64,000 nucleotides of DNA. Source: a virus. The DNA lies in the IMG/VR virus record IMGVR_UViG_3300046492_000237, positions 28,690 to 92,689 of that record; one strand, written 5' to 3'. The position numbers were made by a program, and so were the translations under genes. Positions 23,081-48,232 of the stretch are shown here, piece after piece (the first letter of the stretch is position 1; every line of letters starts with the position of its first letter). Below the pieces are notes generated by a model, which worked only from the letters and a program-made list of their open reading frames with translations, searched no databases and was not told the origin of the DNA.

Positions 23081-23129
23081 CCCCTAACTTTGGGGCGTGG
23101 ACCTATCAATAAAGCCACGCTTGTGCCGA

Positions 23130-24791
23130 ATGAAAATTCAACCCCGCGACTATCAGCAATCGCTGATGGATCAGGTTCGTGTTGCCTTTAGAGAAGGAAA
23201 GCGCAGTCCGTTGGTAGTTGCTGCCACCGGCGCGGGAAAAACCGTGGTGTTCAGCGCTATCGCTGACAGTGCTGCGGAAAAGGGGCATGAGGTGCTGATT
23301 CTGGCGCACCGTGACACCCTCATTAAGCAGGCAAGCGCCAAGCTCAGGCAGAACGGCGTGAAGCACGGCATCATCATGGCGGGCTTCACGCAAGACCTTC
23401 GCCAGAAGGTGCAGGTTGGGTCGGTGCAAACGCTGGCCCGGCGACTGTCAAAGCTGCGCTGGAAGCCGAAACTCATCATTATCGATGAGGCTCACCTGTC
23501 AGCTGCAAAAACCTACCGCGACATCCTCAAGGCTTTCCCCGACGCGCTGGTGCTGGGCTTCACGGGATCGCCGTGCCGGCTCGACAACAAGCCTCTGGGC
23601 AAAGAGGCTGGCGGTATTTATGACGACCTGATTCAGGCCATCTCCATCAAGCAGCTCATTGCGCGTGGCTTCTTGGTGCAGCCGCAGGTGTTCGGCGCCG
23701 CCGAGGCGCTGGATCTGTCCGGCATCAAAAAGAGCATGGGTGACTACGCCACCGCCGAACTGGCGGCCGTCGTCGACAAACCCAAGATCACCGGCGACGC
23801 TGTCGCGCAATACCTCAAGATCTGCCCGGATGTCCCGGCGGTGGCGTGGTGCGTCACGGTTGAGCACGCCCAGCACGTTGCTGACGCCTTCAATGCAGCG
23901 GGGATCTCGGCGCTGATGCTCTGCGGCGAGCACGACAGCGATTACCGCGACAAGGCGCTCAAGGCGCTGGAAACCGGCGAGATCAAGGTCATTTCGTTTG
24001 TCGGGATTTTGATCGAGGGCGTCGACCAGCCCGCGATCGGGGCAATCATCCTGCTGCGTCCGACCATGTCTCTCGCCAGTTACCTGCAGGTGATCGGTCG
24101 CGGCCTTCGCCCATACACCGATGCCAACGGCGTCAAGAAAGAATGCTGCTACGTGCTTGATCATGCTGGGCTCTGGCAGCGCCATGGCTTCGCCGATGAG
24201 GAACGCGAGTGGGAATTGAACACCGAGGTCAAGAAGGGCGCCAAGAAAAAGGAAAAGGAGACGACTGTCGACCTTATCCAGTGTCGCGGCTGCTTTGCGG
24301 TGTTCTCCCCGGTGCAGGCTGCCGAGGCCGGCCAGAAGCTGATCGAGGAGCGCCCGGGCTATCTCGGCGCGCCATGCTGCCCGAACTGCAAGAAGGCGAT
24401 CGAGATCAAGGTCCGCAAGCTTGAGCAGGTTGATGGCGAGCTGATCAAGATCACGCCGGAAATGCGTGCGGAAATGGAGGCTGACCGCAAAAAGACATCG
24501 CTTGAGCAGCGCCGCATGCAGGGCCAGACCCAGACGCTCGAGGACCTGAAGGCCTACGGCGCGAAGATGGGCCGCTCTGCGCAGTGGGCGGAACACGTTT
24601 GGAATGCTCGCCAGCGCAAGAAAGAACCCAAGAAATCGCCGCCAGTCATCGAGCTGCCGCCGGTCCCTACCGATGAACAGCTGGCCGTCATGACACTGGA
24701 GGAGCTGGAGAAAGTCCGCGCCGAACAGGGCTGGCCCCTCAGCTGGCCAACTGAATTTTATCGCAGCAATCAGTCGAACCTCAATTTCTAA
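23130..24791 (+). CDS. superfamily 2 DEAD/DEAH-type DNA helicase
   Basis: 553 residues from the ATG at 23130. Visible motifs in order: IQPRDYQQSLMDQV (Q-motif-like), AATGAGKT (Walker A, 31-38), IIIDEAHLS (Walker B), LGFTGSP (motif III) and QVIGRGLRP (motif VI arginines). A zinc site follows (IQCRGCFAVF ... CCPNC), then a Lys/Glu-rich tail. Likely acts in replication or recombination with the SSB and primase downstream. No strong RBS is seen. Confidence 0.9.
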   Translation: MKIQPRDYQQSLMDQVRVAFREGKRSPLVVAATGAGKTVVFSAIADSAAEKGHEVLILAHRDTLIKQASAKLRQNGVKHGIIMAGFTQDLRQKVQVGSVQTLARRLSKLRWKPKLIIIDEAHLSAAKTYRDILKAFPDALVLGFTGSPCRLDNKPLGKEAGGIYDDLIQAISIKQLIARGFLVQPQVFGAAEALDLSGIKKSMGDYATAELAAVVDKPKITGDAVAQYLKICPDVPAVAWCVTVEHAQHVADAFNAAGISALMLCGEHDSDYRDKALKALETGEIKVISFVGILIEGVDQPAIGAIILLRPTMSLASYLQVIGRGLRPYTDANGVKKECCYVLDHAGLWQRHGFADEEREWELNTEVKKGAKKKEKETTVDLIQCRGCFAVFSPVQAAEAGQKLIEERPGYLGAPCCPNCKKAIEIKVRKLEQVDGELIKITPEMRAEMEADRKKTSLEQRRMQGQTQTLEDLKAYGAKMGRSAQWAEHVWNARQRKKEPKKSPPVIELPPVPTDEQLAVMTLEELEKVRAEQGWPLSWPTEFYRSNQSNLNF

Positions 24792-24803
24792 GGTAACCAC
24801 ACC

Positions 24804-25256
24804 ATGTCATCCGTAAACAGCGTCACCATCGTCGGTCGTGTCGGTCAGGATCCAGAAGTCCGCTTCCTGCCGAACGGCGACGCCATCTGCAACCTGTCCG
24901 TGGCCACCAGCAAGCAATGGATCGACAAAGCCTCTGGCGAAAAGAAGGAAAAAACCGAGTGGCACCGCGTCGTGCTGTTCGGGAAAACCGCCGAGCTGGC
25001 GGGCAAGTGGACCAAGAAGGGCACCGTGGTTTATGTCCGGGGCGAGCTGGAAACCCGCGAGTGGGAGAAGGACGGAATCAAGCGCTACACCACCGAGATC
25101 AAAGGGCTCGACTTCGATCCGTTCATCAGCGGCGTAAAAGCCGAACCGAACCAGACTCAAAGTCGTGACGGTAACAATCAGACCTCGCAGCAACGTTCTC
25201 AGGCCGCGCCGCAGCAATCCGCGCCGCCGCCGAAGGACAACGATATTCCGTTCTGA
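24804..25256 (+). CDS. ssb: single-stranded DNA-binding protein
   Basis: 150 residues. The OB-fold core has [20 protein letters not shown], the [14 protein letters not shown] segment and [12 protein letters not shown] Gln/Ser/Pro-rich linker leads to the acidic tip DNDIPF that recruits partner enzymes. Binds the exposed strand during replication; just downstream of the helicase. Confidence 0.95.
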
Positions 25257-25272
25257 CGCCGCCCCACATTGA

Positions 25273-25310
25273 GCAATGGAGGGGTGGTTTTCGACTCTGG
25301 GGCCCCCTCC
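25273..25310 (+). other. intergenic hairpin after ssb
   Basis: GGAGGGG and CCCCTCC form a stem around a 20-odd-base loop in the 70-bp gap after ssb. No T-run, so more likely an mRNA stability or processing element than a terminator. Confidence 0.4.
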
Positions 25311-25326
25311 TACAAGGAAGCCGTAA

Positions 25327-25542
25327 ATGAAAGACAGTATCTTGAAGGCGTATCAAGAAGAACGCGACACCTTGAAGGCTGGGTCTCCACCGCTGACAGC
25401 GCACGATCATACCGTTGCTGTCATTGCCGCGTTGTATTCCGAGAATGACCTGCGACAGGCCGCCGCAATGCGTGGCGCGTATGAGCGCAAGCAGCGCCGT
25501 GAAGGTCTTGCAGCCAAGCGCAAAGGGAAGGCTGTCAAATGA
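25327..25542 (+). CDS. small basic protein, unknown
   Basis: 71 residues, helical, Lys/Arg-rich C-terminus (ERKQRREGLAAKRKGKAVK). RBS AAGGAAG. Overlaps the next gene by 4 bp. No family recognised; its place in the replication operon and basic tail suggest nucleic-acid contact. Confidence 0.65.
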   Translation: MKDSILKAYQEERDTLKAGSPPLTAHDHTVAVIAALYSENDLRQAAAMRGAYERKQRREGLAAKRKGKAVK

Positions 25543-25868
25543 GCCCGGTTATCCTTTGTCCACGGGTTGAAGGCTACGAAACCCTCGAAAGCGTGCTCGA
25601 TGCCGCGTATGCGCAAGCTGCGCATGGAAAGGGAAAAGAACGCCACGCCAATAACCTGCCGTTTCACAAACAGCGCATGCAGTCGATCAGCGATCTTCTC
25701 GATTCCGATGAAGGCATGGCTTATCAGGTCATCAAGAAAATGACCGAGGGCCTGCAGTTCACAGATCCGGCCGCGCGCGAGAAAGAATTGCTCGGCGCCA
25801 TCGTCTACATCGCCGGTATCGTCGTCCGCCAGCGTCAGTCTTTGGCGGGCACACCCGATGGCCAGTGA
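25539..25868 (+). CDS. replication-operon protein of unknown function
   Basis: 109 residues, mostly helical (SISDLLDSDEGMAYQVIKKM; ELLGAIVYIAGIVVRQRQSL). Starts in the 3' end of its neighbour and overlaps the VRR-NUC gene by 11 bp, so it is translated with the nuclease. Family not recognised. Confidence 0.7.
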   Translation: MSPVILCPRVEGYETLESVLDAAYAQAAHGKGKERHANNLPFHKQRMQSISDLLDSDEGMAYQVIKKMTEGLQFTDPAAREKELLGAIVYIAGIVVRQRQSLAGTPDGQ

Positions 25869-26304
25869 AGGCGTAATCCAGAAAGAGATAATCGGCGCTC
25901 TCGGCTTCTTTTCTCGCTTATTTCGCCTGAATGGCGGCAAAGCTTGGATGTCGAACCTCGGTCCCAAGGGCGTCGTAACGCTCGCCGATGGCTCCAAGCT
26001 GATCAAAGCGCCGCGCCCGGTCGGGCTCGGCTTCACCATGACCAACGGTGACAGCGTTCCGGGGCAGAGCGACCTTGGCGGCTGGACCAAGGTGACCATA
26101 ACGCCGGAGATGGTTGGCAAAGACATTGCCGTTTTTACCGCCATTGAAACCAAGCGTTCGAAGGGTGGAAAGGCATCCGACGACCAGCTCAATTTCGTTG
26201 ACCAAGTGCAGCGCCAAGGCGGTATTGCGGGCATTGCCAACAGCGTCGACGCCGCTCGAAAAATTATTGAGCAATGGGCTAGCAAAATCGGCGCTATTTT
26301 GTAG
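25858..26304 (+). CDS. VRR-NUC domain nuclease
   Basis: 148 residues. SDLGGW (catalytic Asp region), VFTAIETKR (E-x-K) and ASDDQLNFVDQVQRQGGIAG fit the VRR-NUC form of the PD-(D/E)xK fold. These are structure-specific or Holliday-junction-type nucleases, here probably resolving replication or recombination intermediates. Directly precedes the structured leader of the primase gene. Confidence 0.85.
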   Translation: MASEGVIQKEIIGALGFFSRLFRLNGGKAWMSNLGPKGVVTLADGSKLIKAPRPVGLGFTMTNGDSVPGQSDLGGWTKVTITPEMVGKDIAVFTAIETKRSKGGKASDDQLNFVDQVQRQGGIAGIANSVDAARKIIEQWASKIGAIL

Positions 26305-26484: not shown

Positions 26485-29364
26485 ATGAATGACCACGCGG
26501 CAATCAACAAGTTCCTAGAAGCGATGGCGGAACAAGACATCGTTCCGAGCCAGAACCTTAATTTCGAAGGGAAGCTTGAGCGTTTCCACGTTCAGGGTGA
26601 TGCTCTCGGCAGCCGTAATGGCTGGGCTATCCTTCACATTGACAATGCACCAGCTGGTCAGTTCGGTTGCAACAAGCGTTACGGCGATCATAAGTTCTCT
26701 TGGAGCGCGGGCATCAGTGCCACTCCGATGACTGAAGCCGAAAAGAAAAAACAGCGCGAGGACTGGGCAAGGCAGAAGGCCGAAACCGAGAAGCGCCGAG
26801 CTGCCGAGCGTGATGCTGCCGCTGTTCGAGCGCAGTCAGTCTGGGACGCCAGCGTCCCAGCCACTGATGATCATCCCTATCTCGTTCGCAAAGGCGTCAA
26901 GGCGCACGGCCTGCGCGTGGGCAAATGGGAATTCATCAATTCGGATACAGGTGAAGTCACCTGCCTGACTGATCAGGCGCTGCTGGTTCCGCTTTGCGAC
27001 AAGACCCGTAAGGTTCACAGCCTGCAGGGTATTTTCCCCGGGAAGATCCTTGGCCGTGGCGATGGCGCGCGCGACAAGGACTATCTGAAATTCGGCGCCA
27101 AGGTTGGCATGTTCCACGCCATCGGCAAACCGCAGATGGTCGACGGCAACCCGGTCTTCGTTATCTGCGAAGGCTATGCCACCGGCGCATCCATCCATGA
27201 AGAAACCAGTCATCTGGTGCTGGTCACTTTCGATGTGACCAACCTGCTCACGGTTGCCAAGGCAATCCGTGACAGCAAACCAGATGCGATCATCGTGTTT
27301 GCCGTCGATAACGATGTCTGGACCAAAAAGCCAGTCGAAAACCCGGGCGTCCATTACGCAACGATCGCGGCCAAAGCCGTTGGCGGCCTGCTGGCCATTC
27401 CGCCATTCGTCCATGCCGACGGGACCCAAGATGCGGCCGGCAAGTGGTCTGGCCCTACTGACTTCAATGATTTGCAGGTGCGTGACGGGGCTGGCGCGAT
27501 AAAGGCCATCTTCGACGACGTCATTGCAAACCGTAACCTGTCGCCAGAGCCAGAGCCTGAGTCGCCGATGCCTTGGGAGGACGGGCCTCCCGACTACCTC
27601 ACCGAAGACATCCCGCCATCGTCGATGGATGATTCAAACAGTGGCGCGTCATCTCCACCGGTAGAGCCACCGGCGGCCACCGGCGGCGGCCCAAAAGACC
27701 CGATCGTTCCTGCTGACAAGGATGAAGACGATCTGGTTAAGAACGCCCACTTCACGATCCTCGGCTATGACGGACAGACCTATTTCCTGTTCCAGCACGA
27801 AAAGAAACAGGTGCTGGAGATCACCAAAAAGGACCTGAGCGATGTTGGCCTGATCGAGCTGGCCGACCTCTACTGGTGGGAGATGAATTTCGGCAACGGC
27901 AACGGCGGGATCGACAAGAAGGCCGTTGCTCAGTGGCTGTTCCGCACGGCGAACGGTCGCGGTATCTACGATCCTTCGCGGATCCGTGGGCGTGGTGCAT
28001 GGGCTGATAAAGGGCGCGCGGTGTTCCACCACGGCTCCTACCTGACCGTAAATGGCGAGCACACCGACATAACAGCCATCAAATCAGCCTACGTCTACCC
28101 GATGGCGCGCGAACTGCCGCAGCCGTCAGAGACGCCGCTGACCGATGCGGAAGGCGACCATCTCGTCGGCGTTGCCGATATGGTCCGCTGGAACATGCCG
28201 GGCAGCGCGGCGCTGATGGCCGGCTTCGTGATGCTGGCTCCGATCTGCGGTGCGCTGACATGGCGTCCCCACATCTGGCTGACAGGCGTGGCCGGCTCTG
28301 GCAAGTCAACCGTTCAGAACAAGTTCTGCGCGGCCCTGCTGCGCGGTGTTGGCCAGTACTACTCTGGCGACAGCACCGAGGCCGGTATCCGTCAGGATCT
28401 CAAGGCAGACGCGCTGCCGGTGCTTATCGATGAGGCTGAGTCGAACAACGAACGCGACAAGCAGCGGATCGAGAACGTCATCGGCCTGATCCGGAAAACC
28501 TCGACCGAGTCGCAGATGCACACGGCCAAGGGCACCGTTTCCGGAAACAGCCAGCACTTCCAAATCCGGTCGATGTTCTGTCTGGCCTCGATCAACGTCA
28601 ACCTGCCGACCAAGGCCGATATCGACCGCCTGACCATTCTTTCGATCAAGAAAGCCAAAGAGGGTGACGTCGACAACTGGCCTGAGCTCGAGGCTGAGCT
28701 GAACAAGATCGATCAGGACGAAACCATGTCCAGCCGGCTGCTGGCGCGCGCGCTGAAGCTGATGCCGGTCATCCTCGACTCGGTGAAGGTGTTCCGCAAG
28801 GCTGCCGCCATCCACTTCAAGGATCAGCGCTACGGTGACCAGTTCGGCACCCTGTTGGCGGGCTGCTGGTGCCTGATGAAAAGCTACGTGCCGCAGGAAT
28901 ATGAGGCACTGGCCATGATCAAGGGCTACAACTGGCAGGAGCACACTGAGGATCAGGATCAGGACGACTCGGCCAAGGCGCTTGAGGCGCTGCTGAGCGC
29001 GAAGATTCGTCTTCCGGGTAATCTGGGTGACCTCACGGTCTACGAGCTGATACGCGAGTCGACAACGTCGTTCCGCCACGGTAGTGGCGTTGACATGGAC
29101 GTGGCTGACCAAACACTGCGCCGTCACGGGATCCTCGTTGAGAGCGGGCGCCTGTTGTTCGGCACCGGCGTGAGCAACCTCAAAGAGCTGATCGCCAAGA
29201 TGCCCGCCATCACCAACTTGCGCGACCAGCTGCTGCGCGTGAAGGACGCCGATCGAGTGGGCACGAAGAGCTTCAACGGCACCAAGTCAAAATGCGTGTC
29301 CATCCCGTTGGTGCCGATCCTCGGCGAAGCGGTAAAAGAGGAGGACGACGGCAAACCGTTCTGA
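26485..29364 (+). CDS. bifunctional primase-helicase (TOPRIM plus DUF927-like ATPase)
   Basis: 959 residues. The N-terminal half has DnaG-like/TOPRIM features: FVICEGYATGASI (Glu, about 225) and IIVFAVDND (Asp pair, about 270). The C-terminal half is a helicase-like ATPase with Walker A TGVAGSGKST (about 600) and LPVLIDEAES (Walker B). The layout resembles plasmid and phage P4-type replication proteins that prime and unwind at their own origin. It could be the protein that recognises the GGTTACC repeats at 44.3-44.8 kb (inference). Strong RBS GGGCGGGG. Confidence 0.9.
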   Translation: MNDHAAINKFLEAMAEQDIVPSQNLNFEGKLERFHVQGDALGSRNGWAILHIDNAPAGQFGCNKRYGDHKFSWSAGISATPMTEAEKKKQREDWARQKAETEKRRAAERDAAAVRAQSVWDASVPATDDHPYLVRKGVKAHGLRVGKWEFINSDTGEVTCLTDQALLVPLCDKTRKVHSLQGIFPGKILGRGDGARDKDYLKFGAKVGMFHAIGKPQMVDGNPVFVICEGYATGASIHEETSHLVLVTFDVTNLLTVAKAIRDSKPDAIIVFAVDNDVWTKKPVENPGVHYATIAAKAVGGLLAIPPFVHADGTQDAAGKWSGPTDFNDLQVRDGAGAIKAIFDDVIANRNLSPEPEPESPMPWEDGPPDYLTEDIPPSSMDDSNSGASSPPVEPPAATGGGPKDPIVPADKDEDDLVKNAHFTILGYDGQTYFLFQHEKKQVLEITKKDLSDVGLIELADLYWWEMNFGNGNGGIDKKAVAQWLFRTANGRGIYDPSRIRGRGAWADKGRAVFHHGSYLTVNGEHTDITAIKSAYVYPMARELPQPSETPLTDAEGDHLVGVADMVRWNMPGSAALMAGFVMLAPICGALTWRPHIWLTGVAGSGKSTVQNKFCAALLRGVGQYYSGDSTEAGIRQDLKADALPVLIDEAESNNERDKQRIENVIGLIRKTSTESQMHTAKGTVSGNSQHFQIRSMFCLASINVNLPTKADIDRLTILSIKKAKEGDVDNWPELEAELNKIDQDETMSSRLLARALKLMPVILDSVKVFRKAAAIHFKDQRYGDQFGTLLAGCWCLMKSYVPQEYEALAMIKGYNWQEHTEDQDQDDSAKALEALLSAKIRLPGNLGDLTVYELIRESTTSFRHGSGVDMDVADQTLRRHGILVESGRLLFGTGVSNLKELIAKMPAITNLRDQLLRVKDADRVGTKSFNGTKSKCVSIPLVPILGEAVKEEDDGKPF

Positions 29365-36230: not shown

Positions 36231-36263
36231 GGTTGGAACTCCGTGTTCGTGTTTGATGGAGCA

Positions 36264-36294
36264 ATAATAGCCGCATTACTCAAATTTGATCAAT
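36264..36294 (-). promoter_or_regulatory. leftward promoter with palindromic operator
   Basis: On the - strand TTGATC (36293-36288), an 18-base spacer and TATTAT (36269-36264). ATTACTCAAATTTGATCAAT (36275-36294) is the palindrome. It overlaps the last codons of the upstream zinc-finger gene. Confidence 0.7.
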
Positions 36295-36563
36295 ACCTTT
36301 TTTCGCTTTTTATGAAATTTCTTTCGTTCATCACCGGACTGGAGCAGCGTCGCCTGATACGCCAGCGCCAGCTCAAGATTGGCGGCCTTCTGCTCGGGGG
36401 TATCGGTATCGGTCTTCAGTTCACGCAGACGCTCGCTCGCCATGAATCCGCGCTTGGTCAGCGTGTAGCCGGACCCACCGCAGCCCCGGCACTTGATATC
36501 GGCATGACGACCAAAACCCCGGCATTGTCTGCAAGGGTTGTGTTCGAAGGCTGGCTTGGCCAT
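36276..36563 (-). CDS. DnaJ-type zinc-finger protein
   Basis: 95 residues. CRQCRGFG and CRGCGGSG are two CxxCxGxG motifs, half of the four in the DnaJ central finger, so one zinc is expected. A basic helical tail follows (KKFHKKRKKVLIKFE). The final residues are encoded by the operator/promoter DNA itself. Shares one base with its neighbour. Confidence 0.75.
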   Translation of the reverse strand: MAKPAFEHNPCRQCRGFGRHADIKCRGCGGSGYTLTKRGFMASERLRELKTDTDTPEQKAANLELALAYQATLLQSGDERKKFHKKRKKVLIKFE

Positions 36564-43272: not shown

Positions 43273-44001
43273 TCAGCGGCCGCCGAGTGCGTAAACCTCG
43301 AACTTGTTACCCTTCCGCCGAACGCTCATGGCCGCGCGGTTATAGCCATGGGCTGAGCACTCTTTACTAAGGAACGCATAAGCCTTTTTCATCGGCAGCG
43401 GTTTCGTCATTGCGTTCAGCTTGGCCGAGGTGGCGATCATGAAGTTCACGTAATCGATTACTGGCTGCTGGTAGGGCCGTGGGGAATGCTGCTGGGTATG
43501 CAGCTTGCGATGCTCCTCGCGCTCGGCAAGTTCGCCGATGGTGCCTTTATTGAGCGGATCCGCAGCGCGCCATTCGATGGCGTCGGACTCTACCCAGAAC
43601 TTGGCTACGATTACGCCCGCTCGGTAGCCGACCCATACGCTACTGGCCCCGGGCTTTTTCAGTTCTTCGATGGTGCGGAAGGCTGGGGCTTCTTTAGCCG
43701 GCTCGGCAACTGGTGCTGCTGGTGCTGGCGCATCGCAGGTCATGTCGTAGTGATCGGCGATCAGGGCAATGGCTTCGGTCTTGGTCAGCGACTTCGGAGT
43801 GGCGGCCAGATACTGAGCATTGGTCAGCACCCAGCGGATGCGGGACTTGCCAACGCTGTATTTGAATGCGCAGCGCAGTACGCCGGAAGTGACGCGGCCG
43901 TTCTCACGGTATTCGATGCCCATGGTGTCCACGCCGGATTCCTTGGCGCGGTTGATCATCTTGTCAGCGGTGATTTGAGCAGCTTCTTGATGAGTGTTCA
44001 T
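43273..44001 (-). CDS. unknown protein, first gene of the leftward array
   Basis: 242 residues. Two parts joined by an Ala/Pro-rich linker (DAPAPAAPVAEPAKEAP): an N-terminal alpha/beta domain with SLTKTEAIALIADHYD, and a C-terminal part ending in AYAFLSKECSAHGYNRAAMS. The first gene behind the strongest operator/promoter, so probably made early and in quantity. Confidence 0.7.
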   Translation of the reverse strand: MNTHQEAAQITADKMINRAKESGVDTMGIEYRENGRVTSGVLRCAFKYSVGKSRIRWVLTNAQYLAATPKSLTKTEAIALIADHYDMTCDAPAPAAPVAEPAKEAPAFRTIEELKKPGASSVWVGYRAGVIVAKFWVESDAIEWRAADPLNKGTIGELAEREEHRKLHTQQHSPRPYQQPVIDYVNFMIATSAKLNAMTKPLPMKKAYAFLSKECSAHGYNRAAMSVRRKGNKFEVYALGGR

Positions 44002-44039
44002 GGTCGTTTCCCTGTTCGGTTGATTGCTTGGATGGGTGA

Positions 44040-44069
44040 ATCATACGGCGTTACTCAAATTTGATCAAT
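44040..44069 (-). promoter_or_regulatory. main leftward promoter with palindromic operator
   Basis: On the - strand TTGATC (44068-44063), a 17-base spacer and TATGAT (44045-44040), the best match to sigma70 in the set. GTTACTCAAATTTGATCAAT (44050-44069) is the palindrome. It starts the leftward array. Confidence 0.75.
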
Positions 44070-44320
44070 GCCCTTGTGATAACAATTCGTTCTAAGCCAA
44101 AAGCCCCCAGCCCCAGCGAGGCATATGCCCTCACGGCCTGACCGCGCCGCCGAACGGACACATTTGCACATATCTAAAAAAGTTCCGCGTCCAAAATGGC
44201 TAACGGACGACCTGACCGCCATGGTCACCCGCCCGCCGACCCCCTCGCGCACCCAAAACGGAACCCCTCGCCATGGGTGGATTGCGGTCGATTTGAGGGT
44301 GCTGGTCACCCAAAAGGAGC

Positions 44321-44827
44321 GGTTACCGGGTCGGTTTTTGGTGGTAACCGGTTACCGGAAGGGCAAAGGTAACCATGCTCAGATATGAGTAAGCACACCT
44401 GTAAATGCTGGGCAGTTACCGGCAAAGTTACCTCCGGTTACCGCTACACGGTTACCTTTGATGCAGTTACCTCGAAACCGCCTGCAATTGCTGGGGTAAC
44501 CGATTTGCGGTTACCGCCGGTTACGCCGCGTATTTGATGATAGCGCCAGCAATATAAGGGGTAACCGAGGCATGTCAGTTTTGCGGTAACCGGGTAACCC
44601 GGATCGAAAGCAAATATAAATTAACCCTCGGAAATATCATCCCTGACATCACCCCCTACAACCCCCTCCAAAAATTACATGGTTATATATATCCAGTTAC
44701 TGGTTACCTTGACCCTTATTATTATTATTTATTGAGTATCTAGTGATATATATAAAGGGCTTTTTGGGGTAACCAGAAAGGTAACCAAGGGGTAACCCGA
44801 CCGCTTTTCCGGGGTTACCCGGTTACC
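44321..44827. other. candidate replication origin: GGTTACC/GGTAACC iterons and AT-rich tract
   Basis: The 44002-44970 interval has no convincing gene. Between 44321 and 44827 I count 17 exact GGTTACC or GGTAACC copies, in both orientations, and at least four one-mismatch copies (AGTTACC at 44414, 44426 and 44465; GGTTACG at 44519). Chance would give far fewer than one. Twelve lie left of, and five right of, a gap without perfect copies centred on an AT-rich tract (44670-44757, TTATTATTATTATTTATTGA and TATATATAAAG) with one copy at 44702. Iterons beside an easily melted tract are the layout of replication origins. A copy of the dispersed palindrome (CATGCTCAGATATGAGTAAG, 44374-44393) also lies here. 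Confidence 0.7.
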
Positions 44828-44970
44828 TCTGGCAAAACACGGGGTAGCAGCTTGCCAGTGCGCGCCGCAGGCTTGCTTGTAATCGCTGAATGGTTAATCA
44901 TTCTTGGGGTACACCACCCAACCCGACGAACGGTGATTGGATCCCGAAGCCAAACCGCATGGATAACCGT

Positions 44971-45552
44971 ATGATCGCCGGAAATCCCATTGACCCACAG
45001 GTGGCAGTGATGCAATCGAAACCGATTGAATACTTCACGTATCCCGAGCTGCCTGATCGTCCGATGTTCGAGTGCGCAGCACTCAGGGCAACCCTGCAAG
45101 TCGAGCGCTGTGCAGGTATGTGGACCGAGGCCAATGGGAAGAACCCGCCGGAACGTCTGGCCAAGTGCCGCAACTGCCCGATCGGCGCGCTGCATGCCGG
45201 GGAAGTGGAGTTCGACGTGTCAGTGCTGCGGGGAACCGGGATCTGTTCACGGTGCCACCGGGGCGGGATGCGGTTGATCGGGGGTGATATCTGCGTCAGC
45301 TGCTGGAACAGGGCTCGCGAAGTCATCGTCGGACGCAATGCCAAGGGCAAACCGCCCAAGATTCACCCGCCGCTGGCACCACGGTCGATCACCGTCCGGT
45401 CAGGCGGCCAGAACATCACGATCAAACGTGAGCACTCGGTCAGCACCGATGAGCTGGTGGTGGCCGGTTTGAGAGATTGCACCCGGCAGGTTTTGTTCGG
45501 ATTCAGTGCAACGAGAAAGGTTCCTATTTGCGTCCAAGGGGAGTTATTTTGA
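44971..45552 (+). CDS. Cys-rich zinc-binding protein at the head of the rightward arm
   Basis: 193 residues from ATG at 44971 (ATG at 44959 is possible). Two Cys clusters: CAALRATLQVERCAGMW...CRNCPIG, and ICSRCHRGGMRLIGGDICVS followed by CWN, each fit to bind zinc. First gene after the iteron region and transcribed away from it, so a regulator of the rightward arm is plausible but unproved. Its stop overlaps the next start. Confidence 0.7.
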   Translation: MIAGNPIDPQVAVMQSKPIEYFTYPELPDRPMFECAALRATLQVERCAGMWTEANGKNPPERLAKCRNCPIGALHAGEVEFDVSVLRGTGICSRCHRGGMRLIGGDICVSCWNRAREVIVGRNAKGKPPKIHPPLAPRSITVRSGGQNITIKREHSVSTDELVVAGLRDCTRQVLFGFSATRKVPICVQGELF

Positions 45553-45953
45553 TGGAAGAAATTAAAAATTGCGCGAATTCCCAGAATCCGGGCAGCGTTA
45601 TCGACTTCGATGCCGAAAAACGTGCGCGCGAGGCTAAGTCTGACCAATCTGCGCAAGAACCAGTCTTCACGCTCATGCCGCACATCTGCCGCCACTGCTT
45701 CGGTCGATTGGCGAGCCGTTTGAACGATGGGCTGCAGGAGTACCGCTGCACGAATTGCGAGACGGTGACCGTGGCCCTTTCGCATGAGGAGGCCTGCTGC
45801 TGCGGGATGAAGATCCGCAAGCGCAACGGCGCCGGGCGCAGTGGTGGCCCGATGGTCGATGCGGGGATCCGCTGCATCCCAAATCCAGAGAAAAGTCCAG
45901 CATTTCCAAGCGCTTACGTCGCTTGCGAGGTGGTCAAAATCAAGCGCCCCTGA
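45552..45953 (+). CDS. Cys-rich protein of unknown function
   Basis: 133 residues; start overlaps the previous stop (TGATG). HICRHCFGRL and YRCTNC are two CxxC pairs for one zinc; ACCCGM-like ACCCG/CCCGMK cysteines follow (EEACCCGMKI). Coupled to the zinc protein before it. The stop lies in the hairpin of cassette A. Confidence 0.7.
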   Translation: MEEIKNCANSQNPGSVIDFDAEKRAREAKSDQSAQEPVFTLMPHICRHCFGRLASRLNDGLQEYRCTNCETVTVALSHEEACCCGMKIRKRNGAGRSGGPMVDAGIRCIPNPEKSPAFPSAYVACEVVKIKRP

Positions 45954-46139: not shown

Positions 46140-46568
46140 ATGGATTCATCACCGCAACCACGCCTGCCAGTTGTGTACATCGCCGGGCCTTACCGCGCCG
46201 CGACGCAAGCCGGCATCGAGCTGAACATCCAAGCCGCTCGGTCGATGGGTCTGCAAGCCATTCGCCGTGGCTGGTCGCCGATCATCCCGCACTGCAACTT
46301 CGCGCTGCTGGATCTGGTCGACCCTGCCATTGGCGACAGCTTCTGGCTGGCCGCGACCATGGAACACATGCGCCGGGCCGACGTGGTGCTGCTGGTGCCG
46401 GGCTGGGAGAATTCGACCGGCACTCAGGCCGAGGTGCGGGAAGCGCGCCGCCTGAACATCCCGGTTTTCTACGCGCTGGACAAACTCACGGACGGCGCCG
46501 AGTACATGGTCCAGTGCGCAAAGATTCGTGACTTGGTCTCCGTCGTGATGGCAGGTTCGCAGGCATGA
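46140..46568 (+). CDS. DUF4406-like protein (nucleoside deoxyribosyltransferase fold)
   Basis: 142 residues from ATG at 46140. VVYIAGPYRA, the GWSPIIPHCNF segment, and VVLLVPGWENSTGTQAEVRE are the family pattern of DUF4406, related to nucleoside 2-deoxyribosyltransferases. The Glu in QAEVREA would be the nucleophile position. May act on nucleotides. Overlaps the methyltransferase by 4 bp, so the two are coupled. Confidence 0.85.
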   Translation: MDSSPQPRLPVVYIAGPYRAATQAGIELNIQAARSMGLQAIRRGWSPIIPHCNFALLDLVDPAIGDSFWLAATMEHMRRADVVLLVPGWENSTGTQAEVREARRLNIPVFYALDKLTDGAEYMVQCAKIRDLVSVVMAGSQA

Positions 46569-48232
46569 ACACGACCACCCAACCCTTCACACTGCATCTG
46601 GGCGACTGCCTCGATGTGCTGCGCACTCTGCCGGATAACTCGGTGGATAGCGTCGTGACCGATCCGCCGTATGCGTTGCCCGGCGGTTTCATGGGCAAAA
46701 CATGGGACAACTTCGACGGTCGCGAGGATGCTGGGTTTGGTTACTGGCTCGCCGGCTTCACCGATGGTGAGGGCCATTTCCGCGTCCAGAAGCACGAACG
46801 CGGTTCGCACACTTGCGTATTCCAGATCAAGACTCGCGACGATGATCGCGCCGTGCTTGAGCGCATCAAGCGCTTCCTCGGCGTCGGAGTGATTTACGAG
46901 GGCGAAGGCAGCGGCAATGCCAACCCGCAGTGCGCATACATCGTCCAAGACAAGGAGGGCTGCGCTCGCGTTGTCGCCTTGTTCCGCAAGTACCCGCTGA
47001 CCGCCAAGAAGGCGCTCGACTTCGAGATTTGGGCCGAGGCTGTCGAGGAGTGGCTTGAGCGACCGAGAGGCAATCGTTGGCAGGGTATGGCTGACCAAGC
47101 GCGCGCTGCATCGCTGAAAGCTCGACTCGAAGACGTTCGCCGATACACGGGAATCCCTTGGTCTGGGCATAACTTTCAAGATTGGGTGCGCCAATGGGCA
47201 ACCGAGTGCCTTCGAGTGCTGAAGCCCGGCGGCCACATGCTGGCTTTCGGCGCTCCGCGCCAGTATCACCGCCTTGCGGCTGGTATCGAGGACGCCGGCT
47301 TCGAGATCCGCGACCAGATCATGTGGGTGTTCGGCTCAGGCTTCCCGAAGTCGCACAACCTCAAGGGTGACCACGCTGGTTGGGGCACCGCGCTCAAGCC
47401 AGCACACGAACCGATTTGCATGGCGCGAAAGCCGCTGATCGGCACGGTGCTGGCAAACGTTACGGCGTTCGGGACTGGTGCGATGAACATCGACGCCTGT
47501 CGGATCCAGACTGGCGACAACCTGAACGGTGGCGCTTACGTCGACGGCGGTCGTAAGTCGGTCTCGGATTCGATGCGTCAGGGCAGCGGCATGAACGCCG
47601 TTGGCTCATCGGCGGGCGAATACGTCCAGCCCTCCGGTCGATGGCCAGCCAACCTGATCCACGATGGCAGCCCGGAGGTGGTGGCGATGTTCCCCGCCGA
47701 GGCCGGCGCATCTGCTCCGGTCAAGGGCTCCGAGCCAACCGCCAATGGATTCAGCGGGTCTGTGAAGTTCAGCGGGTTGATTGGGCGCGTCGAGGGCGCA
47801 TTTCACGGTGACAGCGGCAGTGCCGCACGGTTTTTCTACTGTGCCAAGACCAGCCGACGCGACCGCAACGAGGGGCTGGTCGATCCCGGGCCGCAGTTCA
47901 AGCGCGGCACCACGCTACGCAAGGTCGAGAACACCGACACCAAGGGCAACAACCATCCGACCGTCAAGCCGACTGAGCTGATGGCGTACCTGCTGCGACT
48001 GGTCACGCCGGTTGGCGGCACAACGCTCGATCCGTTCCTCGGCAGTGGTAGCACCGGCAAGGCCGCGATGCTCGAAGGCTTCGAGTTCATTGGGATCGAG
48101 AAGGAAGCGCCGTACATGGCCATCGCCAGCGCGCGGATCTGTCACGCTCACGCCGCTGCCGTCGCCGCCGCTGATCTGGCGGACGCTGTCGCCAACCCAG
48201 TGCAGGCCGACCTGTTTGGGCTGCTGGCATGA
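46565..48232 (+). CDS. DNA methyltransferase with an in-frame LAGLIDADG endonuclease domain
   Basis: 555 residues. Methyltransferase motif IV is TDPPYALP (about 32-39), the target-strand segment resumes at ECLRVLKPGGHMLAFG (about 214-229), and motif I is LDPFLGSGSTGKAA near 500. Between them, residues about 59-202 form an insert with WLAGFTDGEGHF (LAGLIDADG motif, 62-70) and KYPLTAKKALDFEIWAEAVE, the ends of a single-motif LAGLIDADG endonuclease. Without the insert the text would read DGREDAGF to FQDWVRQWATECL, as in related enzymes. No stop interrupts and no intein splicing blocks are seen. Whether the methyltransferase is active with the insert is unknown. Confidence 0.85.
   Translation: MNTTTQPFTLHLGDCLDVLRTLPDNSVDSVVTDPPYALPGGFMGKTWDNFDGREDAGFGYWLAGFTDGEGHFRVQKHERGSHTCVFQIKTRDDDRAVLERIKRFLGVGVIYEGEGSGNANPQCAYIVQDKEGCARVVALFRKYPLTAKKALDFEIWAEAVEEWLERPRGNRWQGMADQARAASLKARLEDVRRYTGIPWSGHNFQDWVRQWATECLRVLKPGGHMLAFGAPRQYHRLAAGIEDAGFEIRDQIMWVFGSGFPKSHNLKGDHAGWGTALKPAHEPICMARKPLIGTVLANVTAFGTGAMNIDACRIQTGDNLNGGAYVDGGRKSVSDSMRQGSGMNAVGSSAGEYVQPSGRWPANLIHDGSPEVVAMFPAEAGASAPVKGSEPTANGFSGSVKFSGLIGRVEGAFHGDSGSAARFFYCAKTSRRDRNEGLVDPGPQFKRGTTLRKVENTDTKGNNHPTVKPTELMAYLLRLVTPVGGTTLDPFLGSGSTGKAAMLEGFEFIGIEKEAPYMAIASARICHAHAAAVAAADLADAVANPVQADLFGLLA
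46739..47174 (+). mobile_element. LAGLIDADG homing-endonuclease insert inside the methyltransferase
   Basis: About 144 codons inserted in frame between methyltransferase residues near 58 and 203. It has one LAGLIDADG motif, so it should act as a homodimer. An intein would need N-terminal splicing block A before the nuclease and HN followed by Cys, Ser or Thr at its end; here the motif starts at once and the end reads GHN followed by Phe. So it is better read as an invaded, fused nuclease. Borders are estimated to within a few codons. Confidence 0.7.

Follow-up and report, generated by a model that had tools for sequence, protein, structure and literature searches.

The closest described counterparts of the locus analysed here are the replication origins of phage-inducible chromosomal islands (PICI), including the Staphylococcus aureus pathogenicity islands (SaPI), of P4 and of the staphylococcal cassette chromosome mec (SCCmec). 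In PICI and SaPI the origin is recognised by a self-loading helicase through its C-terminal domain (PMC7581432), and a PICI-type origin consists of two iteron sets around an AT-rich region (PMC6092414), immediately 3′ of the initiator gene. The P4 sites ori and crr hold repeats in both orientations, and the C-terminal domain of SCCmec Cch2 binds direct repeats downstream of its own gene (PMC7581432). Here, a stretch of 64,000 nucleotides (the window; positions 28690-92689 of the IMG/VR virus record IMGVR_UViG_3300046492_000237, which has 92,689 bases) was analysed. An iteron array located in the window at 44.3-44.8 kb is probably, with a probability of about 0.88 as judged from sequence comparisons, a phage replication origin bound by the primase-helicase of 959 amino acids that is encoded at 26485..29364 on the plus strand. 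An earlier note on this DNA had proposed the same role and the same candidate initiator, and this proposal gained support from the conserved layout, the switching of iterons between lineages, the arrays 3′ of initiator genes and the covariation of the iterons with the C-terminal domain of the protein.

The array shares with PICI-type origins the two iteron sets around an AT-rich region and with P4 ori/crr the repeats in both orientations, and recognition by the C-terminal domain of the initiator is proposed likewise. In contrast to a PICI-type origin it is separated from the initiator gene by about 15 kb, the immediate 3′ position being found in distant relatives, and it is carried not by a helper-induced satellite but by a 92.7-kb virus with its own large terminase. 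SaPI primases are of the archaeo-eukaryotic primase type (PMC7581432), whereas the window primase is TOPRIM-like. P4 has two sites, whereas one array was found in the window phage, and the heptamer GGTTACC differs, as remarked before, from the P4 type 1 repeat GTTCACC. The putative SCCmec origin has only three 5-nt AAGTG iterons and belongs to a chromosomal cassette. By analogy, the array would work like the origins of P4, PICI and SCC. The novel features are the lineage in which the array occurs, its 15-kb separation from the gene of the initiator, its location about 0.7 kb from the packaging start of relatives and the correlation between a protein residue and an iteron base; a description of such an origin in these phages was not found in the open-access literature.

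The iteron array and its AT-rich tract

The 17 exact copies of GGTTACC/GGTAACC reported for 44321-44827 were all recovered at their coordinates, in two sets flanking an AT-rich tract. The left iteron set (44321..44599) holds 11 exact copies in both orientations together with 4 one-mismatch copies, and the right set (44702..44827) holds 6 exact copies, three of which, at 44768, 44780 and 44791, are the conserved right core of the array. The AT-rich tract at 44600..44767, the presumed unwinding element, contains TATATATA, (TTA)n and ATATATAAAGGG, is in register with relatives and includes an iteron pair at 44694-44708. Its AT content peaks at 0.80 at 44720-44759 and amounts to 0.65-0.72 on both sides of the peak, which agrees with the AT-rich tract described earlier amid the iterons. 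Together with one-mismatch copies, which had also been pointed out, the gap between the flanking genes contains 24 copies. The preferable limits of this gap are 44002-45009, since comparison with relatives moves the start of the right-hand gene from 44890 to 45010.

Whereas the gap has 17 heptamers, 5000 dinucleotide shuffles of it gave 0.33 on average and never more than 3, and the top count for any 7-mer was 6 in 1000 shuffled gaps and 7 in the other 1008-bp stretches of the window. Across the whole window 29 copies were counted, with 2.2 expected; the 12 located outside the gap are typical for heptamers of the same composition (mean 10.4, standard deviation 7.7), and 7 further dispersed copies occur in the 28.7 kb of the genome that lie outside the window. 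The count over the complete genome, as proposed in the earlier note, revealed no enrichment outside the array, and the uniform density elsewhere that the note had named as an argument against an origin was not seen. A consistent GC-skew signal near the array was not found in genomes with co-directional genes. To the left of the array, the 48-base stretch 44028-44075 is repeated with 80% identity at 36252-36300, 7.8 kb away, and is possibly a shared promoter of leftward genes.

Arrays in large and in distant relatives

The named relatives, with genomes of 86-96 kb, are Touem01, Jeremy and Dolphis (Pseudomonas), ST4 (Aeromonas), PHB04 (Bordetella), fHe-Yen8-01 (Yersinia), phiT5282EW (Enterobacter) and Mecenats66 (Morganella). 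Next to their homologue of the conserved Cys-rich gene that flanks the array on the right, the same heptamer is present in 8 exact copies in Touem01 and in 11 each in Jeremy and Dolphis. Other iterons occupy the homologous locus in ST4 (21 GCTACC), PHB04 (10 GATACC), fHe-Yen8-01 (13 GGAACA) and phiT5282EW (GTGACA/GTCACA), and the array of Mecenats66 is weak. A cluster is also present in most of 18 additional IMG/VR records that carry the flank gene, and GCRACC is a further iteron seen at this place in relatives. In the alignment the core copies are in register and mostly their inner bases vary (GTAACC, GCTACC, GATACC, GCAACC), so that the lineages appear to have rewritten the copies in concert while the layout was kept. 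Since the inner bases of all iterons shift together between lineages, initiator and origin are likely to coevolve in the manner of lock and key.

The genes on the two sides of the array point away from it in the window and in the relatives from Pseudomonas, as would be expected if the array were an operator or regulatory region for two divergent early transcripts, a function that could coexist with that of an origin. In fHe-Yen8-01 and phiT5282EW, by contrast, the array is flanked by genes of one direction and is therefore independent of divergent promoters. Moreover, promoter-like sites are few (3, with 1.0 expected) and the partner with which the iterons covary is a replication protein, which makes an operator highly improbable.

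Relatives were gathered with the helicase half of the primase-helicase, 80 at first and then from two sets of viral contigs and one set of bacterial genomes. Iterons were searched by k-mer enrichment; an expectation-maximization motif finder was discarded as it overcounted. In the distant, mostly smaller ones a repeat cluster is located directly 3′ of the stop codon of the primase-helicase gene: an enrichment score of at least 8 was reached by 71 of 113 3′ regions, compared with 2 of 678 control windows that were drawn from these loci. P4 served as positive control, and the 7-mer scan ranked the repeats of the annotated crr, located directly 3′ of alpha like the arrays of the distant relatives, and of ori at the top. 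A chance or selfish repeat expansion without function, contradicted by the shuffle tests, by the layout kept across divergent iterons and by these counts of 3′ adjacency, retains a practically negligible probability.

Two relatives were observed in bacterial sequences. In locus L304, a Pararobbsia alpina contig, the primase-helicase gene, an iteron array and the Cys-rich gene are found inside 8.5 kb, which may represent a transitional form between the arrangements with the array at the initiator gene and at the Cys-rich gene. In Microvirga lupini (L295:8001-9611) a relative with 63% identity to the helicase half was detected, so the replication module is present in a bacterial genome assembly too.

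Covariation of the iterons with the primase-helicase

The primase-helicase appears to consist of a TOPRIM-like primase half and a P-loop helicase half. The Pfam model Toprim_3 scored 26.5 bits with a cut-off of 27.2, and the primase half is 31% identical to P4 alpha across 198 amino acids (BLASTP, expect value (E) 2e-10). D5_N and Pox_D5 of Pfam hit P4 alpha and gave no match to the 959-residue protein, which was therefore kept apart from the P4-alpha/D5 family; it was not grouped with PICI either. For the predicted helicase half (mean predicted local distance difference test score 86) the best fold matches were SCCmec Cch (5dgk, E 5.5e-08, the best match in the PDB), NrS-1 and SaPI5 PriRep1, with an E of 1.3e-06 to 7pds. 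A helicase fold like that of SaPI Rep or SCC Cch, as in self-loading initiator helicases, was accordingly found; the modest template modelling scores, which did not exceed 0.48 in the top matches, make the structural match evidence for the fold class. When the sequence of the primase-helicase or that of its C-terminal domain was searched against the PDB, nothing credible was found. The C-terminal domain (residues about 815-945, 28927..29319 on the plus strand), proposed from models, covariation and a domain swap to bind the iterons, may be winged-helix-like according to the order of helices and hairpin in the model; Foldseek with this domain alone returned weak IRF/HSF-like winged-helix matches only.

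Across relatives the iterons share the form G-N-N-A followed by C or G. The covariation set comprised 145 non-redundant loci, 89 of which could be assigned to a class (52 GNNA-C and 37 GNNA-G). Exactly one of about 530 protein columns sorts the 89 arrays without error: the residue is R (51) or K (1) with GNNA-C and W (19), Y (12) or H (6) with GNNA-G. This column corresponds to S929 of the window protein (codon 29269..29271, plus strand) and is located in a predicted C-terminal beta-hairpin, to which the two columns that follow in the mutual-information ranking, 7 and 12 residues onward, also belong. When the tree is computed from the helicase columns alone, it implies at least 9 changes of iteron class, and the residue tracks the class in each of the 5 independent pairs that have good branch support. 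Loci without class assignment mostly agree with the residue rule. Because the repeat changes together with one of its amino acids, the primase-helicase is the probable reader of the repeats.

Binding domain and iterons also appear to move together. The protein of locus L153 is 88-98% identical to those of L155 and L144 in the helicase, with 90-98% for L155, and 60-67% in the last approximately 110 residues; its iterons are CGTAAGA/GTCAGA, those of L155 and L144 CGTAACA, and the gene beyond is similar again. The simplest account of these sequences would be that recombination exchanged the binding domain and the iterons together, as a single cassette. The primase halves vary, being TOPRIM-like in the window, with a DnaG-type zinc ribbon in Jeremy and of the PriCT-2 type in Acjo_20; Jeremy has an unrelated primase half and yet the same helicase half and the GGTTACC iteron. 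Judging from these comparisons, the primase half is freely exchanged among relatives. Halves with a DnaG-type zinc ribbon (L023:1729-4644), PriCT-2 (L029:3650-6172) and Zn_Ribbon_Prim (L030:18121-21012) were observed in relatives, fused to the same kind of helicase half.

Several points weigh against an origin read by this protein. The 5 independent supported pairs give p = 0.0625, the lowest value that 5 pairs allow, and the definition of the iteron classes was picked after the sequences had been seen, so that the result is a strong correlation from exploration and no planned test. Identity over the whole C-terminal domain does not differ between same-class and different-class pairs, and the domain alone had no confident structural match in Foldseek (nothing under E 0.9). 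Two loci fit badly, L282 with H and GNNA-C repeats and L248 with Y and a mixed array. The residue rule was derived from relatives with the array beside the gene, and the residue of the window is S; in the 90-kb clade the readable arrays are all of the C type, with K, R or S at this position. Finally, 5 of the 18 further large relatives with the flank gene are without a clear cluster. The array of L248 (IMGVR_UViG_3300016265_001324) holds both GTTACA and GTGAGAA repeats and possibly represents an iteron change under way.

In the proposed mechanism, copies of the primase-helicase would bind the iterons directly via the C-terminal hairpin domain, and multimers would gather on the two iteron sets, between which the AT-rich tract would melt. 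The multimers would then load as helicases, after which the primase half would prime synthesis. The steps of binding, melting and loading were taken over from the initiators of SaPI and SCCmec (PMC7581432, PMC6092414) and of P4.

Predicted packaging start, neighbouring genes and implications

The record of Mecenats66 was opened at a packaging start that had been mapped by experiment (PMC9503643); for Touem01 a headful mechanism with pac is listed, as determined by PhageTerm (PMC11256456). The starts of the two records fall where the Cys-rich gene has its 3′ end, at distances of 14 bases before and 12 bases past this end, and the Touem01 record was presumably opened at its own pac site as well. 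By position only, from these two record starts, a pac region is predicted in the window at 45553..45575, near 45564 and about 0.7 kb to the right of the array. This distance makes packaging a serious competing explanation, in which the array would be the pac recognition region for a small terminase, a role that the Cys-rich protein encoded at 45010 might have; a small terminase was searched for in Mecenats66 and not found. Set against this, the Cys-rich gene was not found in the available DNA of 112 of the 113 distant relatives, most of which have arrays directly 3′ of the primase-helicase gene, and in L304, the sole distant relative with the gene, the array is located at the primase-helicase gene, about 2 kb from the Cys-rich gene. 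Moreover, the iterons covary with the primase-helicase, the large terminase is located 64 kb from the array along the record and 27 kb around the record end, and Mecenats66, with its mapped pac site, has only the weak array. A packaging function of the array is thus improbable, and a replication origin is the preferred explanation.

The left flank of the candidate origin is the first gene of the leftward array (43273..44001, minus strand), which is without a family match. On the right, the Cys-rich gene (45010..45552, plus strand; start moved from 44890) adjoins the candidate origin in most large relatives. Family and structure searches with its protein gave no match, and the protein is a candidate for the missing small terminase or for a replication factor. 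Just upstream of the initiator gene, replication genes for a helicase, a single-strand binding protein and a nuclease (23097..26304, plus strand) are present; their order is the same in relatives, in which the nuclease is VRR-NUC-like. A DNA methylase gene with a LAGLIDADG endonuclease domain was observed at 46565-48232 (Pfam PF01555, PF00961).

On balance, the data lean towards a large and undescribed family of phage origins and initiators, in which R or K in the hairpin would specify GNNA-C and W, Y or H would specify GNNA-G, domain and iterons would be swapped as one cassette while primase halves are exchanged freely, and in the headful phages of about 90 kb the origin would have moved from the initiator gene to a position beside pac. 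The same origin layout occurs in a widespread phage group, and the correlation between residue and base makes the specificity of the initiator testable via a single substitution. Additionally, the arrays offer a means of finding replication origins in unannotated phage genomes.
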